Assembly (NCBI RefSeq): GCF_000003605.2 | Contig: NW_003114037.1 | Coordinates: 1-23,655, forward strand | Length of the DNA stretch: 23,655 nt | Source: Saccoglossus kowalevskii | Taxonomy: Eukaryota > Hemichordata > Enteropneusta > Harrimaniidae | Reading direction: 5' to 3' | Made by a program: the position numbers and the translations under genes | The notes under the pieces: generated by a model | Told to the model about the DNA's origin: nothing | Database searches by the model: none | Seen by the model: the letters and a program-made list of their open reading frames with translations, nothing else | Part shown: one piece after another, positions 2,889 to 22,771 of the stretch | Position numbering within the stretch: position 1 is the stretch's first letter | Layout of the letters: every line of letters begins with the position of its first letter

Positions 2889-4687
2889 CAGGGATCCATT
2901 GCGCACAATAGATAGTAGCTCAGGCGCCCATTGCTTCCAATTGATAGTAGCTCAGGGACCCATTGCTCACAATAGATAGTAGTTCAGGCGCCCATTGCTT
3001 CCAATTGATAGTAGCTCAGGGACCCATTGCTCACAATAGATAGTAGCTCAGAGGGCCCATTGCTCACTATAGATAGTAGCTCAGGGGCCCATTGCTTCCA
3101 ATTGATAGTAGCTCAGGGACCCATTGTTCACAATAGATAGTAGCTCAGGCGCCCATTGCTTCCAATTGATAGTACCTCAGGGGCCCATTGCTCACTATAG
3201 ATAGTAGCTCAGGGACCCATTGCTCACAATAGATAGTAGCTCAGGCGCCCATTGCTTCCAATTGATAGTAGCTCAGGGACCCATTGCTCCACAATGGATA
3301 GTAGCTCAGGCGCCCATTGCTTCCAATTGATAGTAGCTCAGGGACCCATTGCTCACAATAGATAGTAGCTCAGGCGCCCATTGCTTGCAATTGATAGTAG
3401 CTCAGGGACCCATTGCGCACAATAGATAGTAGCTCAGGCGCCCATTGCTTCCAATTGATAGTAGCTCAGGCACCCATTGCTCACAATAGATAGTAGCTCA
3501 GGCGCCCATTGCTTCCAATTGATAGTAGCTCAGGGACCCATTGCTCACAATAGATAGTAGCTCAGAGGGCCCATTGCTCACTATAGATAGTAGCTCAGGG
3601 GCCCATTGCTTCCAATTGATAGTAGCTCAGGGACCCATTGTTCACAATAGATAGTAGCTCAGGCGCCCATTGCTTCCAATTGATAGTAGCACAGGGACCC
3701 ATTGCTCACAATAGATAGTAGCTCAGGCGCCCATTGCTTCCAATTGATAGTAGCTCAGACGCCCATTGCTTCCAATTGATAGTAGCTCAGGGACCCATTG
3801 CTCACAATAGATAGTAGCTCAGGGGCCCATTGCTCACTATAGATAGTAGCTCAGGGACCCATTGCTCACAATAGATAGTAGCTTAGGCGCCCATTGCTTC
3901 CAATTGATAGTAGCTGAGGGACCCATTGCTCACAATAGATAGTAGCTCAGGCGCCCATTGCTTCCAATTGATAGTAGCTCAGGGACCCATTGCTCACAAT
4001 AGATAGTAGCACAGGCGCCCATTGCTCCTAATTGATAGTAGCTCAGGGACACATTGCTCACAATTGATAGTAGCTCAGGCGCCCATTGCTGACTATAGAT
4101 AGTAGCTCAGGCGCCTATTGCTCCTAATTGATAGTAGCTCAGGGACCCATTGCTCACAATTGATAGTAGCTCAGGCGCCCATTGCTCACATTTGATAGTA
4201 GCTCAGGTGCCCATTGCTCACAATTGATAGTAGCTCAGGGACCCATTGCTTGCAATAGATAGTAGCTCAGGGGTCCATTGCTTCCAATTGATAGTAGCTC
4301 AGGGACCCATTGTTCACAATAGATAGTAGCTCAGGCGCCCATTGCTTCCAATTGATAGTAACTCAGGGACCCATTGCTCACAATAGATAGCAGCTCAGGC
4401 GCCCATTGCTTCCAATTGATAGTAGCTCAGGGACCCATTGCTTCCAATTGATAGTAGCTCAGGCGCCCATTGCTCCTAATTGATAGTAGCTCAGGGACCC
4501 ATTGCTTGCAATGGATAGTAGCTCAGGGGCCCATTGCTTCCAATTGATAGTAGCTCAGGGACCCATTGTTCACAATAGATAGTAGCTCAGGCGCCCATTG
4601 CTTCCAATTGATAGTAGCACAGGGACCCATTGCTCACAATAGATAGTAGCTCAGGCGCCCATTGCTTCCAATTGATAGTAGCTCAGG
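2889..4687. repeat. Composite block, copy a (simplest form)
   Basis: The block starts at a core ggatcc monomer with tail gcgcacaata (2889) and continues through head gtacctc (3172), core ggcaccc (3467) and cassette X copy 2. The first part recurs at +6,027 (8916, 9199 and 9494). From about 3180 onward it also recurs at +6,477. The difference of 450 is explained by a tandem duplication in the second copy. The match with copy b ends near 4687/11,164, where copy b lacks four monomers including the gatcac and ctccggga landmarks. Confidence 0.83.
4048..4393. repeat. Cassette X, copy 2
   Basis: This copy has the full order of diagnostic monomers, with 338 bases from gacacat to gatagcag, as in copies 1, 3, 4 and 7. 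It has cctattgctcc (not cctattactcc) and a tail ctgactata, placing it in the subgroup with copies 3, 5, 6 and 7, although copy 5 reads ctgattata. It lies inside the 3180-4687 block that recurs at 9657-11,164. Confidence 0.88.
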
Positions 4688-5390
4688 CGCCCATTGCTTC
4701 CAATTGATAGTAGCTCAGGGACCCATTGATCACAATAGATAGTAGCTCAGGGGGCCCATTGCTCACTATAGATAGTAGCTCCGGGACCCATTGCTCACAA
4801 TAGATAGTAGCTCAGGCGCCCATTGCTTCCAATTGATAGTAGCTCAGGGACCCATTGCTCACAATAGATAGTAGCTCAGGCGCCCATTGCTTCCAATTGA
4901 TAGTAGCTCAGGGACCCATTGCTCCACAATGGATAGTAGCTCAGGCGCCCATTGCTTCCAATTGATAGTAGCTCAGGGACCCATTGCTCACAATAGATAG
5001 TAGCTCAGGCGCCCATTGCTTGCAATTGATAGTAGCTCAGGGACCCATTGCGCACAATAGATAGTAGCTCAGGCGCCCATTGCTTCCTATTGATAGTAGC
5101 TCAGGGACCCATTGCTCACAATAGATAGTAGCTCAGGCGCCCATTGCTTCCAATTGATAGTAGCTCAGGGACCCATTGCTCACAATAGATAGTAGCTCAG
5201 AGGGCCCATTGCTCACTATAGATAGTAGCTCAGGGGCCCATTGCTTCCAATTGATAGTAGCTCAGGGACCCATTGTTCACAATAGATAGTAGCTCAGGCG
5301 CCCATTGCTTCCAATTGATAGTAGCACAGGGACCCATTGCTCACAATAGATAGTAGCTCAGGCGCCCATTGCTTCCAATTGATAGTAGCT

Positions 5391-6416
5391 CAGACGCCCA
5401 TTGCTTCCAATTGATAGTAGCTCAGGGACCCATTGCTCACAATAGATAGTAGCTCAGGGGCCCATTGCTCACTATAGATAGTAGCTCAGGGACCCATTGC
5501 TCACAATAGATAGTAGCTCAGGCGCCCATTGCTTCCAATTGATAGTAGCTCAGGGACCCATTGCTCACAATAGATAGTAGCTCAGGCGCCCATTGCTTCC
5601 AATTGATAGTAGCTTAGGGACCCATTGCTCACAATAGATAGTAGCTCAGGCGCCCATTGCTTGCAATAGATAGTAGCTCAGGGGCCCATTGCTTCCAATT
5701 GATAGTAGCTCAGGGACCCATTGTTCACAATAGATAGTAGCTCAGGTGCCCATTGCTTCCAATTGATAGTAGCACAGGGACCCATTGCTCACAATAGATA
5801 GTAGCTCAGGCGCCCATTGCTTCCAATTGATAGTAGCTCAGGCGCCCATTGCTTCCAATTGATAGTAGCTCAGGGACCCATTGCTCACAGTAGATAGTAG
5901 CTCAGGGGGCCCATTGCTCACTATAGATAGTAGCTCAGGAACCCATTACTCACAATAGATAGTAGCTCAGGCGCCCATTGCTTCCAATTGATAGTAGCTC
6001 AGGTACCCATTGCTCACAATAGATAGTAGCTCAGGCGCCCATTGCTTCCAATTGATAGTAGCTCAGGGACCCATTGCTCACAATAGATAGTAGCTCAGGC
6101 GCCCATTGCTTCCAATTGATAGTAGCTCAGGGACCCATTGCTCCACAATAGATAGTAGCTCAGGGGCCCATTGCTTCCAATTGATAGTTGCTCAGGGACC
6201 CATTGCTCACAATAGATAGTAGCTCAGGCGCCCATTGCTTGCAATTGATAGTAGTCCAGGGACCCATTGCTCACAATAGATAGTAGCTCAGGCGCCCATT
6301 GCTTCCAATTGATAGTAGCTCAGGGACCCATTGCTCACAATAGATAGTAGCTCAGGCGCCCATTGCTTCCAATTGATAGTAGCTCAGGAACCCATTGCTC
6401 ACAATAGATAGTAGCT
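5391..6416. repeat. Higher-order repeat, copy 1 (1026 bp)
   Basis: This unit begins at a core gacgccc monomer. In order it contains head agcttaggg (5611), a core ggtgccc unit followed by head agcacagg, core ggaaccc with tail actcacaata (5936), core ggtaccc (6000), head gatagttgct (6183) and head gtagtcc (6251). The next copy begins at 6417 with the same gacgccc core, exactly 1026 bases on, and agcttaggg recurs at 6637 (+1026). The length equals 32 monomers plus two extra bases from 33-bp units. This is a genuine higher-order layer above the 64-bp dimer. Confidence 0.85.
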
Positions 6417-7282
6417 CAGACGCCCATTGCTTCCAATTGATAGTAGCTCAGGGACCCATTGCTCACAATAGATAGTAGCTCAGGGGCCCATTGCTCACTA
6501 TAGATAGTAGCTCAGGGACCCATTGCTCACAATAGATAGTAGCTCAGGCGCCCATTGCTTCCAATTGATAGTAGCTCAGGGACCCATTGCTCACAATAGA
6601 TAGTAGCTCAGGCGCCCATTGCTTCCAATTGATAGTAGCTTAGGGACCCATTGCTCACAATAGATAGTAGCTCAGGCGCCCATTGCTTGCAATAGATAGT
6701 AGCTCAGGGGCCCATTGCTTCCAATTGATAGTAGCTCAGGGACCCATTGTTCACAATAGATAGTAGCTCAGGTGCCCATTGCTTCCAATTGATAGTAGCA
6801 CAGGGACCCATTGCTCACAATAGATAGTAGCTCAGGCGCCCATTGCTTCCAATTGATAGTAGCTCAGGCGCCCATTGCTTCCAATTGATAGTAGCTCAGG
6901 GACCCATTGCTCACAGTAGATAGTAGCTCAGGGGGCCCATTGCTCACTATAGATAGTAGCTCAGGAACCCATTACTCACAATAGATAGTAGCTCAGGCGC
7001 CCATTGCTTCCAATTGATAGTAGCTCAGGTACCCATTGCTCACAATAGATAGTAGCTCAGGCGCCCATTGCTTCCAATTGATAGTAGCTCAGGGACCCAT
7101 TGCTCACAATAGATAGTAGCTCAGGCGCCCATTGCTTCCAATTGATAGTAGCTCAGGGACCCATTGCTCCACAATAGATAGTAGCTCAGGGGCCCATTGC
7201 TTCCAATTGATAGTTGCTCAGGGACCCATTGCTCACAATAGATAGTAGCTCAGGCGCCCATTGCTTCCAATTGATAGTAGCT
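6417..7282. repeat. Higher-order repeat, copy 2 (866 bp)
   Basis: This copy has the same order of landmarks as copy 1: gacgccc core (6417), agcttaggg (6637), ggtaccc (7026) and gatagttgct (7209). It then ends early and lacks the five monomers that in copy 1 include gtagtcc. The spacing from ggtaccc to gatagttgct is 183 bases, as in copy 1. Confidence 0.85.
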
Positions 7283-8150
7283 CAGACGCCCATTGCTTCC
7301 AATTGATAGTAGCTCAAGGACCCATTGCTCACAATAGATAGTAGCTCAGGGGGCCCATTGCTCACTATAGATAGTAGCTCAGGGACCCATTGCTCACAAT
7401 AGATAGTAGCTCAGGCGCCCATTGCTTCCAATTGATAGTAGCTCAGGGACCCATTGCTCACAATAGATAGTAGCTCAGGCGCCCATTGCTTCCAATTGAT
7501 AGTAGCTTAGGGACCCATTGCTCACAATAGATAGTAGCTCAGGCGCCCATTGCTTGCAATAGATAGTAGCTCAGGGGCCCATTGCTTCCAATTGATAGTA
7601 GCTCAGGGACCCATTGTTCACAATAGATAGTAGCTCAGGTGCCCATTGCTTCCAATTGATAGTAGCACAGGGACCCATTGCTCACAATAGATAGTAGCTC
7701 AGGCGCCCATTGCTTCCAATTGATAGTAGCTCAGGCGCCCATTGCTTCCAATTGATAGTAGCTCAGGGACCCATTGCTCACAGTAGATAGTAGCTCAGGG
7801 GGCCCATTGCTCACTATAGATAGTAGCTCAGGAACCCATTACTCACAATAGATAGTAGCTCAGGCGCCCATTGCTTCCAATTGATAGTAGCTCAGGTACC
7901 CATTGCTCACAATAGATAGTAGCTCAGGCGCCCATTGCTTCCAATTGATAGTAGCTCAGGGACCCATTGCTCCACAATAGATAGTAGCTCAGGGGCCCAT
8001 TGCTTCCAATTGATAGTTGCTCAGGGGCCCATTGCTTCCAATTGATAGTAGCTCAGGGACCCATTGCTCACAATAGATAGTAGCTCAGGCGCCCATTGCT
8101 TCCAATTGAATGTAGCTCAGGGACCCATTGCTTGCAATAGATAGTAGCTC
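7283..8150. repeat. Higher-order repeat, copy 3 (about 867 bp)
   Basis: It starts with the gacgccc core (7283), then a core gggggcccat unit where copies 1 and 2 have ggggcccat, then agcttaggg (7504) and ggtaccc (7893). Spacing to gatagttgct (8012) is 119 bases, 64 fewer than copies 1 and 2, so one dimer is missing. It continues into a gaatgtagc head (8108). The 64-bp loss and the gaatgtagc head are shared with the segment at 22,773-23,490. Confidence 0.84.
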
Positions 8151-8728
8151 AGAGGGCCCATTGCTCACTATAGATAGTAGCTCAGGGGCCCATTGCTTCC
8201 AATTGATAGTAGCTCAGGGACCCATTGTTCACAATAGATAGTAGCTCAGGCGCCCATTGCTTCCAATTGATAGTAGCACAGGGACCCATTGCTCACAATA
8301 GATAGTAGCTCAGGCGCCCATTGCTTCCAATTGATAGTAGCTCAGACGCCCATTGCTTCCAATTGATAGTAGCTCAGGGACCCATTGCTCACAACAGATA
8401 GTAGCTCAGGGGCCCATTGCTCACTTTAGATAGTAGCTCAGGGACCCATTGCTCACAATAGATAGTAGCTCAGGCGCCCATTGCTTCCAATTGATAGTAG
8501 CTCAGGGACCCATTGCTCACAATAGATAGTAGCTCAGGCGCCCATTGCTTCCAATTGATAGTAGCTCAGGCGCCCATTGCTTCCAATTGATAGTAGCTCA
8601 GGGACCCATTGCTCACAATAGATAGTAGCTCAGGGGCCCATTGCTCACTATAGATAGTAGCTCAGGGACTCATTACTCACAATAGATAGTAGCTCAGGGG
8701 CCCATTGCTTCCAATTGATAGTAGCTCA

Positions 8729-8834
8729 GGACCCATTGCTCACATAGATAGTAGCTCAGGCGCCCATGCTTCAATTGATAGTAGCTCAGGGACCATTGCT
8801 CCACAATGGATAGTAGCTCAGGCGCCCATTGCTT
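8729..8834. other. Small cluster of homopolymer indels
   Basis: Within about 105 bases there are five one-base changes in homopolymer runs that lack counterparts in related copies: ggg to gg (8729), aa to a in cacatag (8744), tt to t in cccatgct (8766), cc to c in cttcaatt (8772) and tt to ttt in gctttcc (8832). The nearby core ggaccattgctcc is not counted, because it also occurs near 12,867, 14,403 and 16,807. The pattern suggests local sequencing or consensus error, possibly at an assembly join. Confidence 0.6.
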
Positions 8835-9203
8835 TCCAATTGATAGTAGCTCAGGGACCCATTGCTCACAATAGATAGTAGCTCAGGCGCCCATTATTTG
8901 CAATTGATAGTAGCTCAGGGATCCATTGCGCACAATAGATAGTAGCTCAGGCGCCCATTGCTTCCAATTGATAGTAGCTCAGGGACCCATTGCTCACAAT
9001 AGATAGTAGTTCAGGCGCCCATTGCTTCCAATTGATAGTAGCTCAGGGACCCATTGCTCACAATAGATAGTAGCTCAGAGGGCCCATTGCTCACTATAGA
9101 TAGTAGCTCAGGGGCCCATTGCTTCCAATTGATAGTAGCTCAGGGACCCATTGTTCACAATAGATAGTAGCTCAGGCGCCCATTGCTTCCAATTGATAGT
9201 ACC

Positions 9204-10103
9204 TCAGGGGCCCATTGCTCACTATAGATAGTAGCTCAGGGACCCATTGCTCACAATAGATAGTAGCTCAGGCGCCCATTGCTTCCAATTGATAGTAGCT
9301 CAGGGACCCATTGCTCCACAATGGATAGTAGTTCAGGCGCCCATTGCTTCCAATTGATAGTAGCTCAGGGACCCATTGCTCACAATAGATAGTAGCTCAG
9401 GCGCCCATTGCTTGCAATTGATAGTAGCTCAGGGACCCATTGCGCACAATAGATAGTAGCTCAGGCGCCCATTGCTTCCAATTGATAGTAGCTCAGGCAC
9501 CCATTGCTCACAATAGATAGTAGCTCAGGCGCCCATTGCTTCCAATTGATAGTAGCTCAGGGACCCATTGCTCACAATAGATAGTAGCTCAGAGGGCCCA
9601 TTGCTCACTATAGATAGTAGCTCAGTGGCCCATTGCTTCCAATTGATAGTAGCTCAGGGGCCCATTGCTCACTATAGATAGTAGCTCAGGGACCCATTGC
9701 TCACAATAGATAGTAGCTCAGGCGCCCATTGCTTCCAATTGATAGTAGCTCAGGGACCCATTGCTCCACAATGGATAGTAGCTCAGGCGCCCATTGCTTC
9801 CAATTGATAGTAGCTCAGGGACCCATTGCTCACAATAGATAGTAGCTCAGGCGCCCATTGCTTCCAATTGATAGTAGCTCAGGGACCCATTGCGCACAAT
9901 AGATAGTAGCTCAGGCGCCCATTGCTTCCAATTGATAGTAGCTCAGGCACCCATTGCTCACAATAGATAGTAGCTCAGGCGCCCATTGCTTCCAATTGAT
10001 AGTAGCTCAGGGACCCATTGCTCACAATAGATAGTAGCTCAGAGGGCCCATTGCTCACTATAGATAGTAGCTCAGTGGCCCATTGCTTCCAATTGATAGT
10101 AGC
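9204..10103. repeat. 450-bp tandem duplication (two copies)
   Basis: The two halves are about 9204-9653 and 9654-10,103. Paired landmarks ggcaccc (9494/9944) and agtggccc (9623/10,073) are exactly 450 bases apart, which is 14 monomers plus two bases from 33-bp units. By eye the halves differ at only a few places, such as head tagttcagg near 9329 against tagctcagg, and tail ttgcaatt against ttccaatt near 9411/9861. The homologous blocks at 2889 and 14,527 have a single copy, so the duplication is recent and specific to this block. Confidence 0.85.
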
Positions 10104-10870: not shown

Positions 10871-11369
10871 CTCAGGCGCCCATTGCTTCCAATTGATAGT
10901 AGCTCAGGGACCCATTGCTTCCAATTGATAGTAGCTCAGGCGCCCATTGCTCCTAATTGATAGTAGCTCAGGGACCCATTGCTTGCAATGGATAGTAGCT
11001 CAGGGGCCCATTGCTTCCAATTGATAGTAGCTCAGGGACCCATTGTTCACAATAGATATTAGCTCAGGCGCCCATTGCTTCCAATTGATAGTAGCACAGG
11101 GACCCATTGCTCACAATAGATAGTAGCTCAGGCGCCCATTGCTTCCAATTGATAGTAGCTCAGGGACCCATTGCTCACAATAGATAGTAGCTCAGGCGCC
11201 CATTGCTTCCAATTGATAGTAGCTCAGGGACCCATTGCTCCACAATGGATAGTAGCTCAGGCGCCCATTGCTTCCAATTGATAGTAGCTCAGGGACCCAT
11301 TGCTCACAATAGATAGTAGCTCAGGCGCCCATTGCTTGCAATTGATAGTAGCTCAGGGACCCATTGCGC

Positions 11370-11822
11370 ACTATAGATAGTAGCTCAGGGACCCATTGCT
11401 CACAATAGATAGTAGCTCAGGCGCCCATTGCTCACAATAGATAGTAGCTCAGGGGCCCATTGCTTCCAATTGATAGTAGCTCAGGGACCCATTGCTCACA
11501 ATAGATAGTAGCTCAGAGACCCATTGCTCACAATTGATAGTAGCTCAGGGGCCCATTGCTCACAATAGATAGTAGCTCAGAGTCCATTGCTTCCAATTGA
11601 TATTAGCTCAGGGACCCATTGCTCACAATAGATTGTAGCTCAGGGACCCATTGCTCACAATTGATAGTAGCTCAGGGACCCATTGCTTGCAATAGATAGT
11701 AGCTCAGGGACCCATTGCTCCCAATTGATAGTAGCTCAGGCGCCCATTGCTTCCAATTGATAGTAGCTCAGGGACCCATTGCTTCCAATTGATAGTAGCT
11801 CAGGCGCCCAATGCTTGCAATA
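11370..11822. repeat. Irregular monomer stretch
   Basis: This zone mixes monomer types not found in this order elsewhere: core gagaccc, core gagtcc (as at the first base of the window), head gatattagc, head gattgtagc and several B-type cores in a row with changed tails. It ends in a hybrid monomer (11,801) with core ggcgcccaatg and tail cttgcaata directly before a gatagcag head. That same junction occurs at 15,810. Confidence 0.7.
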
Positions 11823-13019
11823 GATAGCAGCTCAGGCGCCCATTGCTTCCAATTGATAGTAGCTCAGGGACCCATTGCTTCCAATTGATAGTAGCTCAGG
11901 GGCCCATTGCTTCCAATTGATAGTAGCTCAGGGACCCATTGTTCACAATAGATAGTAGCTCAGGCGCCCATTGCTTCCAATTGATAGTAGCACAGGGACC
12001 CATTGCTCACAATAGATAGTAGCTCAGGCGCCCATTGCTTCCAATTGATAGTAGCTCAGGCGCCCATTGCTTCCAATTGATAGTAGCTCAGGGACCCATT
12101 GATCACAATAGATAGTAGCTCAGGGGGCCCATTGCTCACTATAGATAGTAGCTCCGGGACCCATTGCTCACAATAGATAGTAGCTCAGGCGCCCATTGCT
12201 TCCAATTGATAGTAGCTCAGGGACCCATTGCTCCACAATGGATAGTAGCTCAGGCGCCCATTGCTTCCAATTGATAGTAGCTCAGGGACCCATTGCTCAC
12301 AATAGATAGTAGCTCAGGCGCCCATTGCTTGCAATTGATAGTAGCTCAGGGACCCATTGCGCACAAAAGTTAGTAGCTCAGGCGCCCATTGCTTCCAATT
12401 GATAGTAGCTCAGGGACCCATTGCTCACAATAGATAGTAGCTCAGGCGCCCATTGCTTCCAATTGATAGTAGCTCAGGGACCCATTGCTCACAATAGATA
12501 GTAGCTCAGAGGGCCCATTGCTCACTATAGATAGTAGCTCAGGGGCCCATTGCTTCCAATTGATAGTAGCTCAGGGACCCATTGTTCACAGTAGATAGTA
12601 GCTCAGGCGCCCATTGCTTCCAATTGATAGTAGCACAGGGACCCATTGCTCACAATAGATAGTAGCTCAGGCGCCCATTGCTTCCAATTGATAGTAGCTC
12701 AGACGCCCATTGCTTCCAATTGATAGTAGCTCAGGGACCCATTGCTCACAATAGATAGTAGCTCAGGGGCCCATTGCTCACTATAGATAGTAGCTCAGGG
12801 ACCCATTGCTCACAATAGATAGTAGCTCAGGCGCCCATTGCTTCCAATTGATAGTAGCTCAGGGACCATTGCTCCACAATGGATAGTAGCTCAGGCGCCC
12901 ATTGCTTCCAATTGATAGTAGCTCAGGGACCCATTGCTCACAATAGATAGTAGCTCAGGCGCCCATTATTTGCAATTGATAGTAGCTCAGGGATCCATTG
13001 CGCACAATAGATAGTAGCT
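11823..13019. repeat. 1.2-kb segment duplicated at 1,539-bp spacing (copy 1)
   Basis: Head gatagcag (11,823 and 13,362), ctccggga (12,152 and 13,691), the odd monomer with cacaaaagttag (12,361 and 13,900), tail gttcacagtag (12,584 and 14,123) and core ggatcc (12,988 and 14,527) all share offset 1,539. The cacaaaagttag form was found only in these two places; the window has a related cacaaaagatag at 1431. Copy 1 stops near 13,019, where it joins cassette X copy 4. A small difference is tail attatttgcaatt here against attgcttgcaatt in copy 2. Confidence 0.85.
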
Positions 13020-13023
13020 CAGG

Positions 13024-13369
13024 GACACATTGCTCACAATTGATAGTAGCTCAGGCGCCCATTGCTCACTATAGATAGTAGCTCAGGCGCCTATTACTCC
13101 TAATTGATAGTAGATCAGGGACCCATTTCTCACAATTGATAGTAGCTCAGGCGCCCATTGCTCACATTTGATAGTAGCTCAGGTGCCCATTGCTCACAAT
13201 TGATAGTAGCTCAGGGACCCAATGCTTGCAATAGATAGTAGCTCAGGGGTCCATTGCTTCCAATTGATAGTAGCTCAGGGACCCATTGTTCACAATAGAT
13301 AGTAGCTCAGGCGCCCATTGCTTCCAATTGATAGTAACTCAGGGACCCATTGCTCACAATAGATAGCAG
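13024..13369. repeat. Cassette X, copy 4
   Basis: This is a full-length cassette sharing the private variants of copy 1 (cctattactcc, tagatcagg, catttctcac, cccaatgcttgc) at offset 10,933. It sits between the two copies of the 1,539-spaced segment, so that pair is not a simple head-to-tail duplication. Confidence 0.88.
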
Positions 13370-14558
13370 CTCAGGCGCCCATTGCTTCCAATTGATAGTA
13401 GCTCAGGGACCCATTGCTTCCAATTGATAGTAGCTCAGGGGCCCATTGCTTCCAATTGATAGTAGCTCAGGGACCCATTGTTCACAATAGATAGTAGCTC
13501 AGGCGCCCATTGCTTCCAATTGATAGTAGCACAGGGACCCATTGCTCACAATAGATAGTAGCTCAGGCGCTCATTGCTTCCAATTGATAGTAGCTCAGGC
13601 GCCCATTGCTTCCAATTGATAGTAGCTCAGGGACCCATTGATCACAATAGATAGTAGCTCAGGGGGCCCATTGCTCACTATAGATAGTAGCTCCGGGACC
13701 CATTGCTCACAATAGATAGTAGCTCAGGCGCCCATTGCTTCCAATTGATAGTAGCTCAGGGACCCATTGCTCCACAATGGATAGTAGCTCAGGCGCCCAT
13801 TGCTTCCAATTGATAGTAGCTCAGGGACCCATTGCTCACAATAGATAGTAGCTCAGGCGCCCATTGCTTGCAATTGATAGTAGCTCAGGGACCCATTGCG
13901 CACAAAAGTTAGTAGCTCAGGCGCCCATTGCTTCCAATTGATAGTAGCTCAGGGACCCATTGCTCACAATAGATAGTAGCTCAGGCGCCCATTGCTTCCA
14001 ATTGATAGTAGCTCAGGGACCCATTGCTCACAATAGATAGTAGCTCAGAGGGCCCATTGCTCACTATAGATAGTAGCTCAGGGGCCCATTGCTTCCAATT
14101 GATAGTAGCTCAGGGACCCATTGTTCACAGTAGATAGTAGCTCAGGCGCCCATTGCTTCCAATTGATAGTAGCACAGGGACCCATTGCTCACAATAGATA
14201 GTAGCTCAGGCGCCCATTGCTTCCAATTGATAGTAGCTCAGACGCCCATTGCTTCCAATTGATAGTAGCTCAGGGACCCATTGCTCACAATAGATAGTAG
14301 CTCAGGGGCCCATTGCTCACTATAGATAGTAGCTCAGGGACCCATTGCTCACAATAGATAGTAGCTCAGGCGCCCATTGCTTCCAATTGATAGTAGCTCA
14401 GGGACCATTGCTCCACAATGGATAGTAGCTCAGGCGCCCATTGCTTCCAATTGATAGTAGCTCAGGGACCCATTGCTCACAATAGATAGTAGCTCAGGCG
14501 CCCATTGCTTGCAATTGATAGTAGCTCAGGGATCCATTGCGCACAATAGATAGTAGCT
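13362..14558. repeat. 1.2-kb segment duplicated at 1,539-bp spacing (copy 2)
   Basis: This is the second copy of 11,823-13,019, with every listed landmark at +1,539. A private substitution is core ggcgctcat near 13,570. After the core ggatcc monomer at 14,527 it continues into composite block copy c, where copy 1 instead switches to cassette X. Confidence 0.85.
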
Positions 14559-15776
14559 CAGGCGCCCATTGCTTCCAATTGATAGTAGCTCAGGGACCCA
14601 TTGCTCACAATAGATAGTAGCTCAGGCGCCCATTGCTTCCAATTGATAGTAGCTCAGGGACCCATTGCTCACAATAGATAGTAGCTCAGAGGGCCCATTG
14701 CTCACTATAGATAGTAGCTCAGGGGCCCATTGCTTCCAATTGATAGTAGCTCAGGGACCCATTGTTCACAATAGATAGTAGCTCAGGCGCCCATTGCTTC
14801 CAATTGATAGTAGCTCAGGGGCCCATTGCTCACTATAGATAGTAGCTCAGGGACCCATTGCTCACAATAGATAGTAGCTCAGGCGCCCATTGCTTCCAAT
14901 TGATAGTAGCTCAGGGACCCATTGCTCCACAATGGATAGTAGCTCAGGCGCCCATTGCTTCCAATTGATAGTAGCTCAGGGACCCATTGCTCACAATAGA
15001 TAGTAGCTCAGGCGCCCATTGCTTGCAATTGATAGTAGCTCAGGGACCCATTGCGCACAATAGATAGTAGCTCAGGCGCCCATTGCTTCCAATTGATAGT
15101 AGCTCAGGCACCCATTGCTCACAATAGATAGTAGCTCAGGCGCCCATTGCTTCCAATTGATAGTAGCTCAGGGACCCATTGCTCACAATAGATAGTAGCT
15201 CAGAGGGCCCATTGCTCACTATAGATAGTAGCTCAGTGGCCCATTGCTTCCAATTGATAGTAGCTCAGGGACCCATTGTTCACAATAGATAGTAGCTCAG
15301 GCGCCCATTGCTTCCAATTGATAGTAGCACAGGGACCCATTGCTCACAATAGATAGTAGCTCAGGCGCCCATTGCTTCCAATTGATAGTAGCTCAGACGC
15401 CCATTGCTTCCAATTGATAGTAGCTCAGGGACCCATTGCTCACAATAGATAGTAGCTCAGGGGCCCATTGCTCACTATAGATAGTAGCTCAGGGACCCAT
15501 TGCTCACAATAGATAGTAGCTTAGGCGCCCATTGCTTCCAATTGATAGTAGCTCAGGGACCCATTGCTCACAATAGATAGTAGCTCAGGCGCCCATTGCT
15601 TCCAATTGATAGTAGCTCAGGGACCCATTGCTCACAATAGATAGTAGCACAGGCGCCCATTGCTCCTAATTGATAGTAGCTCAGGGACACATTGCTCACA
15701 ATTGATAGTAGCTCAGGCGCCCATTGCTGATTATAGATAGTAGCTCAGGCGCCTATTGCTCCTAATTGATAGTAGC
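14527..15776. repeat. Composite block, copy c
   Basis: Core ggatcc (14,527) and core ggcaccc (15,105) lie at +5,611 from copy b. Core agtggccc (15,234) and cassette X (15,686) lie at +5,161 from copy b's second half, the difference being the 450-bp duplication absent here. At the site of the gtacctc head of copies a and b this copy has the ordinary gtagctc (near 14,810). It ends inside a truncated cassette X. Confidence 0.82.
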
Positions 15777-16931: not shown

Positions 16932-18515
16932 CAGGGATCCATTGCGCACAATAGATAGTAGCTCAGGCGCCCATTGCTTCCAATTGATAGTAGCTCAGGG
17001 ACCCATTGCTCACAATAGATAGTAGCTCAGGCGCCCATTGCTTCCAATTGATAGTAGCTCAGGGACCCATTGCTCACAATAGATAGTAGCTCAGAGGGCC
17101 CATTGCTCACTATAGATAGTAGCTCAGGGGCCCATTGCTTCCAATTGATAGTAGCTCAGGGACCCATTGTTCACAATAGATAGTAGCTCAGGCGCCCATT
17201 GCTTCCAATTGATAGTAGCTCAGGGGCCCATTGCTCACTATAGATAGTAGCTCAGGGACCCATTGCTAACAATAGATAGTAGCTCAGGCGCCCATTGCTT
17301 CCAATTGATAGTAGCTCAGGGACCCATTGCTCCACAATGGATAGTAGCTCAGGCGCCCATTGCTTCCAATTGATAGTAGCTCAGGGACCCATTGCTCACA
17401 ATAGATAGTAGCTCAGGCGCCCATTGCTTGCAATTGATAGTAGCTCAGGGACCCATTGCGCACAATAGATAGTAGCTCAGGCGCCCATTGCTTCCAATTC
17501 ATAGTAGCTCAGGGACCCATTGCTCACAATAGATAGTAGCTCAGGCGCCCATTGCTTCCAATTGATAGTAGCTCAGGGACCCATTGCTCACAATAGATAG
17601 TAGCTCAAAGGGCCCATTGCTCACTATAGATAGTAGCTCAGGGGCCCATTGCTTCCAATTGATAGTAGCTCAGGGACCCATTGTTCACAATAGATAGTAG
17701 CTCAGGCGCCCATTGCTTCCAATTGATAGTAGCACAGGGACCCATTGCTCACAATAGATAGTAGCTCAGGCGCCCATTGCTTCCAATTGATAGTAGCTCA
17801 GACGCCCATTGCTTCCAATTGATAGTAGCTCAGGGACCCATTGCTCACAATATATAGTAGCTCAGGGGCCCATTGCTCACTATAGATAGTAGCTCAGGGA
17901 CCCATTGCTCACAATAGATAGTAGCTCAGGCGCCCATTGCTTCCAATTGATAGTAGCTCAGGGACCCATTGCTCACAATAGATAGTAGCTCAGGGGCCCA
18001 TTGCTCACTATAGATAGTAGCTCAGGGACCCATTGCTCACAATAGATAGTAGCTCAGGCGCCCATTGCTTCCAATTGATAGTAGCTCAGGGACCCATTGC
18101 TCACAATAGAGAGTAGCTCAGGCGTCCATTGCTTCCAATTGATAGTAGCTCAGGGACCCATTGCTCACAATAGATAGTAGCACAGGCGCCCATTGCTCCT
18201 AATTGATAGTAGCTCAGGGACACATTGCTCACAATTGATAGTAGCTCAGGCGCCCATTGCTGACTATAGATAGTAGCTCAGGCGCCTATTGCTCCTAATT
18301 GATAGTAGCTCAGGGACCCATTGCTCACAATTGATAGTAGCTCAGGCGCCCATTGCTCACATTTGATAGTAGCTCAGGTGCCCATTGCTCACAATTGATA
18401 GTAGCTCAGGGACCCATTGCTTGCAATAGATAGTAGCTCAGGGGTCCATTGCTTCCAATTGATAGTAGCTCAGGGACCCATTGTTCACAATAGATAGTAG
18501 CTCAGGCGCCCATTG
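16932..18515. repeat. Composite block, copy d (expanded)
   Basis: Core ggatcc (16,932) is followed by a ggggcccat / ctcactata unit at the same distance as in copy a. Cassette X then begins 1,287 bases in, against 1,159 in copy a, an excess of 128 bases or four monomers. Private landmarks are tail ctaacaata (17,266), a ttcatag junction (17,498) and core caaagggccc (17,606). The first two recur at +5,273 (22,539 and 22,771). Ttcatag and caaaggg recur at +1,393. Confidence 0.78.
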
Positions 18516-18780
18516 CTTCCATTGATAGTAACTCAGGACCCATTGCTCACAATAGATAGCAGCTCAGCGCCCATTGCTTCCAATTGATAGTAGCTCAGGA
18601 CCCATTGCTTCCAATTGATAGTAGCTCAGCGCCCATTGCTCCTAATTGATAGTAGCTCAGGACCATTGCTTGCAATGGATAGTAGCTCAGGGCCCATTGC
18701 TTCCAATTGATAGTAGGCTCAGGACCCATTGTTCACATAGATAGTAGCTCAGGCGCCCATTGCTTCATGATAGTAGCTCA
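17446..18780. repeat. 1.3-kb segment repeated immediately downstream (copy 1)
   Basis: Ttcatag (17,498 and 18,891) and caaaggg (17,606 and 18,999) share offset 1,393. Later landmarks, such as tcacatttg (18,359 and 19,688), share offset 1,329 because copy 1 holds one extra 64-bp dimer. Copy 2 begins near 18,839, directly after the indel-rich patch at 18,520-18,830. The adjacency may be biological or an unresolved assembly overlap. Confidence 0.83.
18219..18562. repeat. Cassette X, copy 6 (two bases short)
   Basis: Gacacat to gatagcag measures 336 bases, two fewer than full copies. The losses are one a in the tail ttccattg (18,520) and one g in the core caggacc (18,534), both in homopolymers. 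The first 300 bases are clean. The cassette's 3' part enters the indel-rich patch. Confidence 0.85.
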
Positions 18781-18830
18781 TGGACCCATGCTCACAATAG
18801 ATAGTAGCTCAGGCGCCCATGCTTCCATGA
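18520..18830. other. Indel-rich patch, probable uncorrected consensus
   Basis: About 17 single-base deletions and one insertion fall within 310 bases, nearly all in runs of two to four identical bases. Examples are ggg to gg and gg to g in cores, ccc to cc in ggaccattg, aa to a in ttcacatag, and ttccaatt shortened to ttcat or ttccat. The intact equivalent near 19,850-20,130 has almost none (one ggg to gg at 19,993). Ordinary satellite variants in this window are substitutions or single fixed indels shared by several copies. These are private and clustered, which is the signature of low-coverage long-read sequence used to bridge a gap. Confidence 0.75.
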
Positions 18831-18838
18831 TAGTAGCT

Positions 18839-20100
18839 CAGGGACCCATTGCGCACAATAGATAGTAGCTCAGGCGCCCATTGCTTCCAATTCATAGTAG
18901 CTCAGGGACCCATTGCTCACAATAGATAGTAGCTCAGGCGCCCATTGCTTCCAATTGATAGTAGCTCAGGGACCCATTGCTCACAATAGATAGTAGCTCA
19001 AAGGGCCCATTGCTCACTATAGATAGTAGCTCAGGGGCCCATTGCTTCCAATTGATAGTAGCTCAGGGACCCATTGTTCACAATAGATAGTAGCTCAGGC
19101 GCCCATTGCTTCCAATTGATAGTAGCACAGGGACCCATTGCTCACAATAGATAGTAGCTCAGGCGCCCATTGCTTCCAATTGATAGTAGCTCAGACGCCC
19201 ATTGCTTCCAATTGATAGTAGCTCAGGGACCCATTGCTCACAATAGATAGTAGCTCAGGGGCCCATTGCTCACTATAGATAGTAGCTCAGGGACCCATTG
19301 CTCACAATAGATAGTAGCTCAGGCGCCCATTGCTTCCAATTGATAGTAGCTCAGGGACCCATTGCTCACAATAGATAGTAGCTCAGGGGCCCATTGCTCA
19401 CTATAGATAGTAGCTCAGGGACCCATTGCTCACAATAGATAGTAGCTCAGGCGCCCATTGCTTCCAATTGATAGTAGCTCAGGGACCCATTGCTCACAAT
19501 AGATAGTAGCACAGGCGCCCATTGCTCCTAATTGATAGTAGCTCAGGGACACATTGCTCACAATTGATAGTAGCTCAGGCGCCCATTGCTGACTATAGAT
19601 AGTAGCTCAGGCGCCTATTGCTCCTAATTGATAGTAGCTCAGGGACCCATTGCTCACAATTGATAGTAGCTCAGGCGCCCATTGCTCACATTTGATAGTA
19701 GCTCAGGTGCCCATTGCTCACAATTGATAGTAGCTCAGGGACCCATTGCTTGCAATAGATAGTAGCTCAGGGGTCCATTGCTTCCAATTGATAGTAGCTC
19801 AGGGACCCATTGTTCACAATAGATAGTAGCTCAGGCGCCCATTGCTTCCAATTGATAGTAACTCAGAGACCCATTGCTCACAATAGATAGCAGCTCAGGC
19901 GCCCATTGCTTCCAATTGATAGTAGCTCAGGGACCCATTGCTTCCAATTGATAGTAGCTCAGGCGCCCATTGCTCCTAATTGATAGTAGCTCAGGACCCA
20001 TTGCTTGCAATGGATAGTAGCTCAGGGGCCCATTGCTTCCAATTGATAGTAGCTCAGGGACCCATTGTTCACAATAGATAGTAGCTCAGGCGCCCATTGC
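18839..20100. repeat. 1.3-kb segment, copy 2
   Basis: This is the clean second copy of 17,446-18,780. It starts at a tail gcgcacaata monomer and includes ttcatag (18,891), caaaggg (18,999) and cassette X copy 7. It lacks one dimer (64 bp) present in copy 1 before the head agcacagg. A few substitutions separate the two, such as tatatag near 17,851 and agagagtag near 18,109 in copy 1, so it is not a literal copy. Confidence 0.83.
19548..19893. repeat. Cassette X, copy 7
   Basis: This is a full-length cassette (338 bases from gacacat to gatagcag) of the cctattgctcc / ctgactata subgroup. A private change gives core agagaccc after gatagtaactc (19,865), where other copies have agggaccc or, in copy 6, aggaccc. 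Confidence 0.88.
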
Positions 20101-21206
20101 TTCCAATTGATAGTAGCACAGGGACCCATTGCTCACAATAGATAGTAGCTCAGGCGCCCATTGCTTCCAATTGATAGTAGCTCAGGCGCCCATTGCTTCC
20201 AATTGATAGTAGCTCAGGGACCCATTGATCACAATAGATAGTAGCTCAGGGGGCCCATTGCTCACTATAGTCAGTAGCTCCGGGACCCATTGCTCACAAT
20301 AGATAGTAGCTCAGGCGCCCATTGCTTCCAATTGATAGTAGCTCTGGGACCCATTGCTCACAATAGATAGTAGCTCAGGCGCCCATTGCTTCCAATTGAT
20401 AGTAGCTCAGGGACCCATTGCTCCACAATGGATAGTAGCTCAGGCGCCCATTGCTTCCAATTGATAGTAGCTCAGGGACCCATTGCTCACAATAGATAGT
20501 AGCTCAGGCGCCCATTGCTTGCAATTGATAGTAGCTCAGGGACCCATTGCGCACAATAGATAGTAGCTCAGGCGCCCATTGCTTCCAATTGATAGTAGCT
20601 CAGGGACCCATTGCTCACAATAGATAGTAGCTCAGGCGCCCATTGCTTCCAATTGATAGTAGCTCAGGGACCCATTGCTCACAATAGATAGTAGCTCAGA
20701 GGGCCCATTGCTCACTATAGATAGTAGCTCAGGGGCCCATTGCTTCCAATTGATAGTAGCTCAGGGACCCATTGTTCACAATAGATAGTAGCTCAGGCGC
20801 CCATTGCTTCCAATTGATAGTAGCACAGGGACCCATTGCTCACAATAGATAGTAGCTCAGGCGCCCATTGCTTCCAATTGATAGTAGCTCAGACGCCCAT
20901 TGCTTCCAATTGATAGTAGCTCAGGGACCCATTGCTCACAATAGATAGTAGCTCAGGGGCCCATTGCTCACTTTAGATAGTAGCTCAGGGACCCATTGCT
21001 CACAATAGATAGTAGCTCAGGCGCCCATTGCTTCCAATTGATAGTAGCTCAGGGACCCATTGCTCACAATAGATAGTAGCTCAGGCGCCCATTGCTTCCA
21101 ATTGATAGTAGCTCAGGCGCCCATTGCTTCCAATTGATAGTAGCTCAGGGACCCATTGCTCACAATAGATAGTAGCTCAGGGGGCCCATTGCTCACTATA
21201 GATAGT

Positions 21207-22189: not shown

Positions 22190-22771
22190 CAATTGATAGT
22201 AGCTCAGGGACCCATTGCGCACAATAGATAGTAGCTCAGGCGCCCATTGCTTCCAATTGATAGTAGCTCAGGGACCCATTGCTCACAATAGATAGTAGCT
22301 CAGGCGCCCATTGCTTCCAATTGATAGTAGCTCAGGGACCCATTGCTCACAATAGATAGTAGCTCAGAGGGCCCATTGCTCACTATAGATAGTAGCTCAG
22401 GGGCCCATTGCTTCCAATTGATAGTAGCTCAGGGACCCATTGTTCACAATAGATAGTAGCTCAGGCGCCCATTGCTTCCAATTGATAGTAGCTCAGGGGC
22501 CCATTGCTCACTATAGATAGTAGCTCAGGGACCCATTGCTAACAATAGATAGTAGCTCAGGCGCCCATTGCTTCCAATTGATAGTAGCTCAGGGACCCAT
22601 TGCTCCACAATGGATAGTAGCTCAGGCGCCCATTGCTTCCAATTGATAGTAGCTCAGGGACCCATTGCTCACAATAGATAGTAGCTCAGGCGCCCATTGC
22701 TTGCAATTGATAGTAGATCAGGGACCCAATGCGCACAATAGATAGTAGCTCAGGCGCCCATTGCTTCCAAT
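22190..22771. repeat. Segment matching 16.92-17.50 kb (offset 5,273)
   Basis: Tail ctaacaata (22,539) and the ttcatag junction (22,771) match 17,266 and 17,498 at offset 5,273. Private changes are head tagatcagg and core cccaatgcgcac near 22,720-22,735. Right after ttcatag the sequence switches to relatives of the 7434-8150 region. Confidence 0.8.

Follow-up and report, generated by a model that had tools for sequence, protein, structure and literature searches.

Read-quality sequence at a putative join inside a tandem satellite contig of Saccoglossus kowalevskii

The window analysed here, a stretch of 23,655 nt that makes up the whole contig C790:1-23655 of a 572 Mb assembly with 4,830 contigs, contains a dense cluster of short insertions and deletions at positions 18,521–18,827 (forward strand, as for all features below except the satellite array, to which no strand was assigned). 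Alignments and a window scan identified this tract as a noisy version of 19,850–20,169, which we read as an unpolished read or a low-depth consensus, and at its right end the order of the satellite repeats starts over. The tract would represent never-polished sequence of read quality at a putative join inside a satellite contig. It separates the clean part of a first copy (17,435–18,521) from a clean second copy (18,828–20,180), and we lean towards the view that this second copy may be a false duplication stemming from an unmerged contig overlap.

The entire 23.7 kb contig consists of satellite DNA. TRF assigned positions 12–23,654 to a long array of short units arranged head to tail (period 32, 738 copies across the contig), in which the 32-bp units alternate as ~64-bp dimers and build longer, irregular blocks; the window is free of N gaps. 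The landmark TTGCGCACAA occurs 18 times in the contig, at spacings of 450–3,878 bp, and a collinearity test over 720 bp at 459 positions of the contig yielded 192 discontinuous, 192 continuous and 75 unclassifiable positions. With these spacings and with 192 of the 384 classifiable positions discontinuous, the contig shows no regular higher-order repeat with a fixed multi-monomer period, and the array is a mosaic. This organization resembles satellite DNA with irregular higher-order structure in its 32-bp tandem units, its dimers and its partial order in longer blocks, and differs from it in the lack of a fixed higher-order period over the same landmark spacings. Three probe strings taken from the array were without a match in the literature under which the satellite could be named, and a broader literature search on the satellite, as well as one on unpolished contig ends, returned nothing specific among the matches listed. 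One exact 18-mer of the satellite occurs once in each of nine prokaryote genome stretches and was not found among viral contigs; the prokaryote matches are taken as chance.

Compared with 19,847–20,169, the segment 18,518–18,827 lacks 14 bases, spread over 13 runs, and carries one extra base and two substitutions. The full alignment adds two further losses at the right-hand end of the noisy tract, which brings the count against the clean copy at 19,847–20,173 to 16 missing bases and one extra base, 17 indel bases in total. The sequence-only reading had spoken of about 18 homopolymer indels in 310 bases, which is borne out by this count and by the observation that 13 of the 14 listed losses fall into runs of two to four identical bases. 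The clean homologues starting at 19,847, 4,347 and 10,824 differ pairwise by no or one indel over ~323 bases. With regard to substitutions the noisy tract is equally close to 4,347–4,670 and to the second copy (two in each case); its sites 18,537 and 18,778 have no simple fit to the second copy, and the former is explained more simply by a GGG ancestor than by the AGA of the second copy.

When 588 windows of 160 bp were each compared with the best partner within the contig, no indel was found in 520 of them. At least five indels were present in 11 windows, which form two clusters only, at 8,641–8,880 (three windows) and at 18,481–18,920 (eight windows). With the background rate of the same scan rounded to ~0.12 indel runs per 160 bp, the Poisson probability of 15 indel runs in 310 bp is ~2e-22. 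Because of this value and of the confinement of windows with at least five indels to two clusters, the indel storm is a real fact of the sequence and far beyond chance.

The type of error was addressed by comparing 11 CTCA/CACA-G(n) sites of the noisy tract and its flank with the homologue at 4,330–4,671. Seven consecutive sites, from 18,532 to 18,718, are each shorter by exactly one G; G(n) is kept at 18,501 (the site before the seven), 18,748 and 18,808, and 18,777 is altered by a substitution. The seven sites represent different monomer types in normal order, so the spread of one mutant unit cannot explain their losses, and such parallel changes suggest that the sequence was misread systematically. 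The loss at 18,656 recurs in the clean second copy, at 19,990, and could represent a true variant. At 19,990 this one-G loss stands alone (CTCAGGACCC), at the same site as the loss at 18,656; CTCAGGACC was elsewhere found only in the two noisy patches.

The second of these patches is smaller and of the same kind, and is located at 8,728–8,838, where four bases are missing and one is extra relative to 12,770–12,942; immediately to its left lies a true sequence difference from this partner. The patch comes without a local repeat, as no gapless segment of at least 400 bp at an offset below 2,000 bp starts within 8,728–8,838. The best partner switches beside the patch, from 20,877 for 8,330–8,720 to 2,822 and 16,866 for 8,850–9,100.

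As an outside control, we scanned nine neighbouring contigs, C791 and C792 as a whole and the initial 8,000 bases of each of C793–C799. All nine scanned pieces consist mostly of tandem repeats, with unrelated units (27, 32, 35, 36, 47, 56, 108, 150 and ~215 bp in C791–C799), and such a run of neighbouring arrays is an unusual concentration. C799 is a 5S rDNA array in which a patch at ~3,257–3,470, when compared with 6,147–6,414, contains 33 inserted bases in 28 runs, no missing base and seven substitutions, and is hence denser than the storm in C790. Of the inserted bases, 30 of 33 equal the neighbouring base. The first 8,000 bases of the contig contain 33 5S matches; the patch overlaps two of these, one being the lowest-scoring of all (3,439–3,558, 45.9 bits), and the best partner shifts across the patch from 5,897 to 5,123. 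This patch shows that the assembly includes sequence of raw-read quality in at least one further tandem array. Losses dominate in the C790 storm and gains in C799, a contrast for which local depth and the method of consensus calling may be responsible. Additional patches in C799, at 4,041–4,320, 4,841–5,160 and 9,761–9,920, combine insertions and losses, partly with substitutions.

In the scanned parts of the other eight contigs, nothing as strong was found inside a well-matching array. The maximum number of indel runs per window was two in C795, four in C792 (one window), four in C797 and six in C798, and the clusters in C797 near 5,841 (four runs) and in C798 at 561–800 (four and six runs) were considered too weak. 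The high indel counts at C794 1–720, C791 1–160, C793 7,521–7,760 and C796 1–160 were excluded, since each of these windows has 11 to 24 mismatches, a mark of poorly matching sequence. At the left array edge of C791 (81–240), one window has five indel runs with a single mismatch and may be a small noisy patch.

Taken from the error type and the noise as observed, the origin of the indels at 18,521–18,827 is almost certainly technical, because the losses affect short homopolymers, seven sites lost one G each, a second patch exists at 8,728–8,838 and a further one in C799. The earlier suggestion that low-quality sequence had been built into the contig thus receives strong support from the error type, from the second patch in the window and from the comparable patch in the unrelated C799 array.

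The two copies flanking the noise are nearly identical. Between 17,435–18,110 and 18,828–19,503 there is one mismatch in 676 bp (99.85%), and between 18,077–18,521 and 19,406–19,850 there are two. Aligned over 17,435–18,521 and 18,828–19,850, the clean parts are identical except for one substitution, at 17,853, and one 64-bp dimer at 18,062–18,125, an alignment gap that marks a dimer of the first copy absent from the second. The previously described single dimer was therefore confirmed, and the "some substitutions" reduce to one in the clean part. Likewise, the restart is real, and its start needs correction: the second copy had been placed at 18,839 and its counterpart at 17,446, and can be traced back to 18,828 and 17,435, respectively. 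From 18,521 onwards, the noisy part of the first copy still tracks the second copy (19,850 onward), no part of the repeat is missing before the second copy starts, and the noise reaches the restart. The dimer occupies a slot of variable length, which measures 332, 332, 364, 396 (second copy) and 460 bp (first copy) between CTCAGACGCC and TTGCTGACTATAG-type landmarks at five places, and the 43 31-mers starting at 18,081–18,123 within the dimer of the first copy are unique in the contig. At 17,797–18,257 and 19,190–19,586 the slot changes by whole monomers or dimers.

Over 676 bp the two copies are mutual closest relatives, whereas the five other partners listed for 18,828–19,387 have three to five mismatches in 560. 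Within the contig, CTCAAAGGG is found at 17,604 and 18,997 only, and is thus a variant exclusive to the pair with a spacing of 1,393 bp. The motif ATTCATAG at 17,498 and 18,891, which the sequence-only reading had chosen as a tag for both copies, is a weak one, with a third occurrence at 22,770. No CTCCACAATGG landmark stands at the position predicted for it, 126 bp ahead of 18,849; in 15 of 18 cases this landmark lies 126 or 127 bp ahead of TTGCGCAC, and it is missing at the second copy, at 2,899 and at 22,215. On the basis of this missing landmark and of the tail scores given below, the backward jump in repeat order was assigned to the interval 18,740–18,828, the finest placement of the junction that the sequence allows.

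Since the copies are closest relatives and share the exclusive CTCAAAGGG, since the repeat runs in full to the restart with the noise extending to it, and since the TTGCGCAC-linked landmark is missing before the second copy, we slightly favour a false duplication. To account for the observed noise, error type, restart and near-identity of the copies, the noisy tail of a read would close one assembled piece at ~18,828, where the following piece would begin, the two truly overlapping by ~1.3–1.4 kb. The noise and the one-dimer difference, perhaps a difference between haplotypes, would have prevented merging, and the overlap would consequently have been written twice, so that the second copy would be the same locus as the first. 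According to passages in PMC8081667, overlapping sequence at contig boundaries leads to tandem false duplicates whose consensus quality differs between the copies, and a passage in PMC9516828 describes that error-bearing reads can be incorporated between false duplicates. The situation in C790 resembles the homotype false duplications at contig boundaries described there in that near-identical copies lie side by side (17,435–18,521 and 18,828–19,850), and in that the quality, as judged from sequence only, is unequal, with noise at the boundary (17 indel bases per ~310 bp in the first copy). Unlike in those descriptions, C790 has no N gap between the copies, and their clean sequence shows a difference of one dimer and one base. 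With heterotype false duplications, as outlined in the same passages, it shares the combination of a difference in dimer number with a single-base difference, which would be possible for two satellite alleles.

Several observations speak against an unmerged overlap. The dimer and the substitution separate the copies in clean sequence, although the dimer sits in a slot of variable length. The poor fit of the sites 18,537 and 18,778 to the second copy, the equal closeness of the noisy tract to 4,347–4,670 in substitutions, the G loss at 18,656 that may be real and the lack of an N gap also count against it. Equally similar, noise-free neighbours exist, such as 5,381–6,240 and 6,407–7,266 (860 bp, no mismatch, offset 1,026) or 11,818–13,023 and 13,357–14,562 (1,206 bp, three mismatches, offset 1,539), and adjacent copies of 0.6–1.2 kb with 99.4–100% identity also occur outside both noisy clusters. 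Breaks of repeat order are common in the array, and the jump at the storm therefore proves nothing by itself: the test centres at the storm (18,511–18,811) were discontinuous in five of seven cases and unclassifiable in two, while at the second patch two of six centres were even continuous, and with 192 discontinuous positions among 384 classifiable ones we rejected the view that a phase jump proves a join. Finally, the noisy tail fits both sides. For the last 90 noisy bases, the continuation of the first copy and the predecessor of a copy start reach the same score of 149, each with two mismatches and five missing bases (continuations in the second copy and at 4,578; predecessors at 17,340, 20,431 and 3,297), and the continuation at 11,055 scores 144; given this tie, diagnostic bases could not attribute the tail to either side. 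The tied tail, the common breaks and the similar neighbours mean that the sequence by itself cannot separate an unmerged overlap from a raw-read gap fill in a real duplication. The claim that the array is falsely lengthened by ~1.3 kb is a plausible reading, against which stand the noise-free neighbours, the 192 breaks among 384 positions and the tied tail.

A gap filled with a raw read, or a misjoin, is a possible though less probable explanation for the join. The noise would again be technical, the copies might be real neighbours, several hundred bases between them may have been mangled or lost, and the true length would be uncertain. Such a gap fill is consistent with the equally good match of the tail to the predecessor of a copy start and to the continuation of the first copy, with the frequency of near-identical neighbours in the array, and with the landmark spacing of 1,393 bp, after which this landmark recurs at the longer intervals of 1,698 and 1,668 bp. 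Against it stand the landmark missing before 18,849, which precedes TTGCGCAC elsewhere in most cases, and the status of the two copies as closest relatives over 676 bp that share a variant exclusive within the contig.

We consider it unlikely that unequal exchange produced a real, recent tandem duplication here and that an independent patch of low-quality consensus came to lie near its junction by chance. Such a duplication could be reconciled with the dimer and the substitution if both post-date it, other recent duplications are present in the array, and the patch at 8,728–8,838, which has no such local repeat, indicates that patches occur independently of one; however, noise and junction must then coincide, with the junction inside the final 90 bp of noise. 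That the indels themselves are real, laid down by error-prone repair or replication where a duplication was joined, is highly improbable, and less credible still is the wider proposition that duplicating a 1.4-kb satellite block left an error-prone tract and that fresh tandem duplications carry such a junction scar, since, although the cluster terminates at a rearrangement junction and order shifts were also seen at or beside the second patch (8,611–8,861; four of six centres discontinuous, two continuous) and across the C799 patch (3,211–3,511; three of seven discontinuous, four unclassifiable), seven successive sites are each short of one G, the tract in the 5S array C799 of the same assembly has insertions only, and order breaks are so frequent (in C799 overall 112 of 312 positions discontinuous, 84 continuous and 116 unclassifiable) that the association is weak.

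The storm and the restart are a matter of assembly and add nothing new on biology. They call for caution where copy number, duplication age or mutation rate are measured in assembled satellites, as unpolished patches in satellite contigs can mimic hypermutation and may flag sequence that was counted twice. Elsewhere in the window, the region 5,381–7,972 holds a block in three copies with exact identity over 623–860 bp at offsets of 1,026, 867 and 1,893 and without noise, which may reflect either a recent tandem amplification or more unmerged overlaps.
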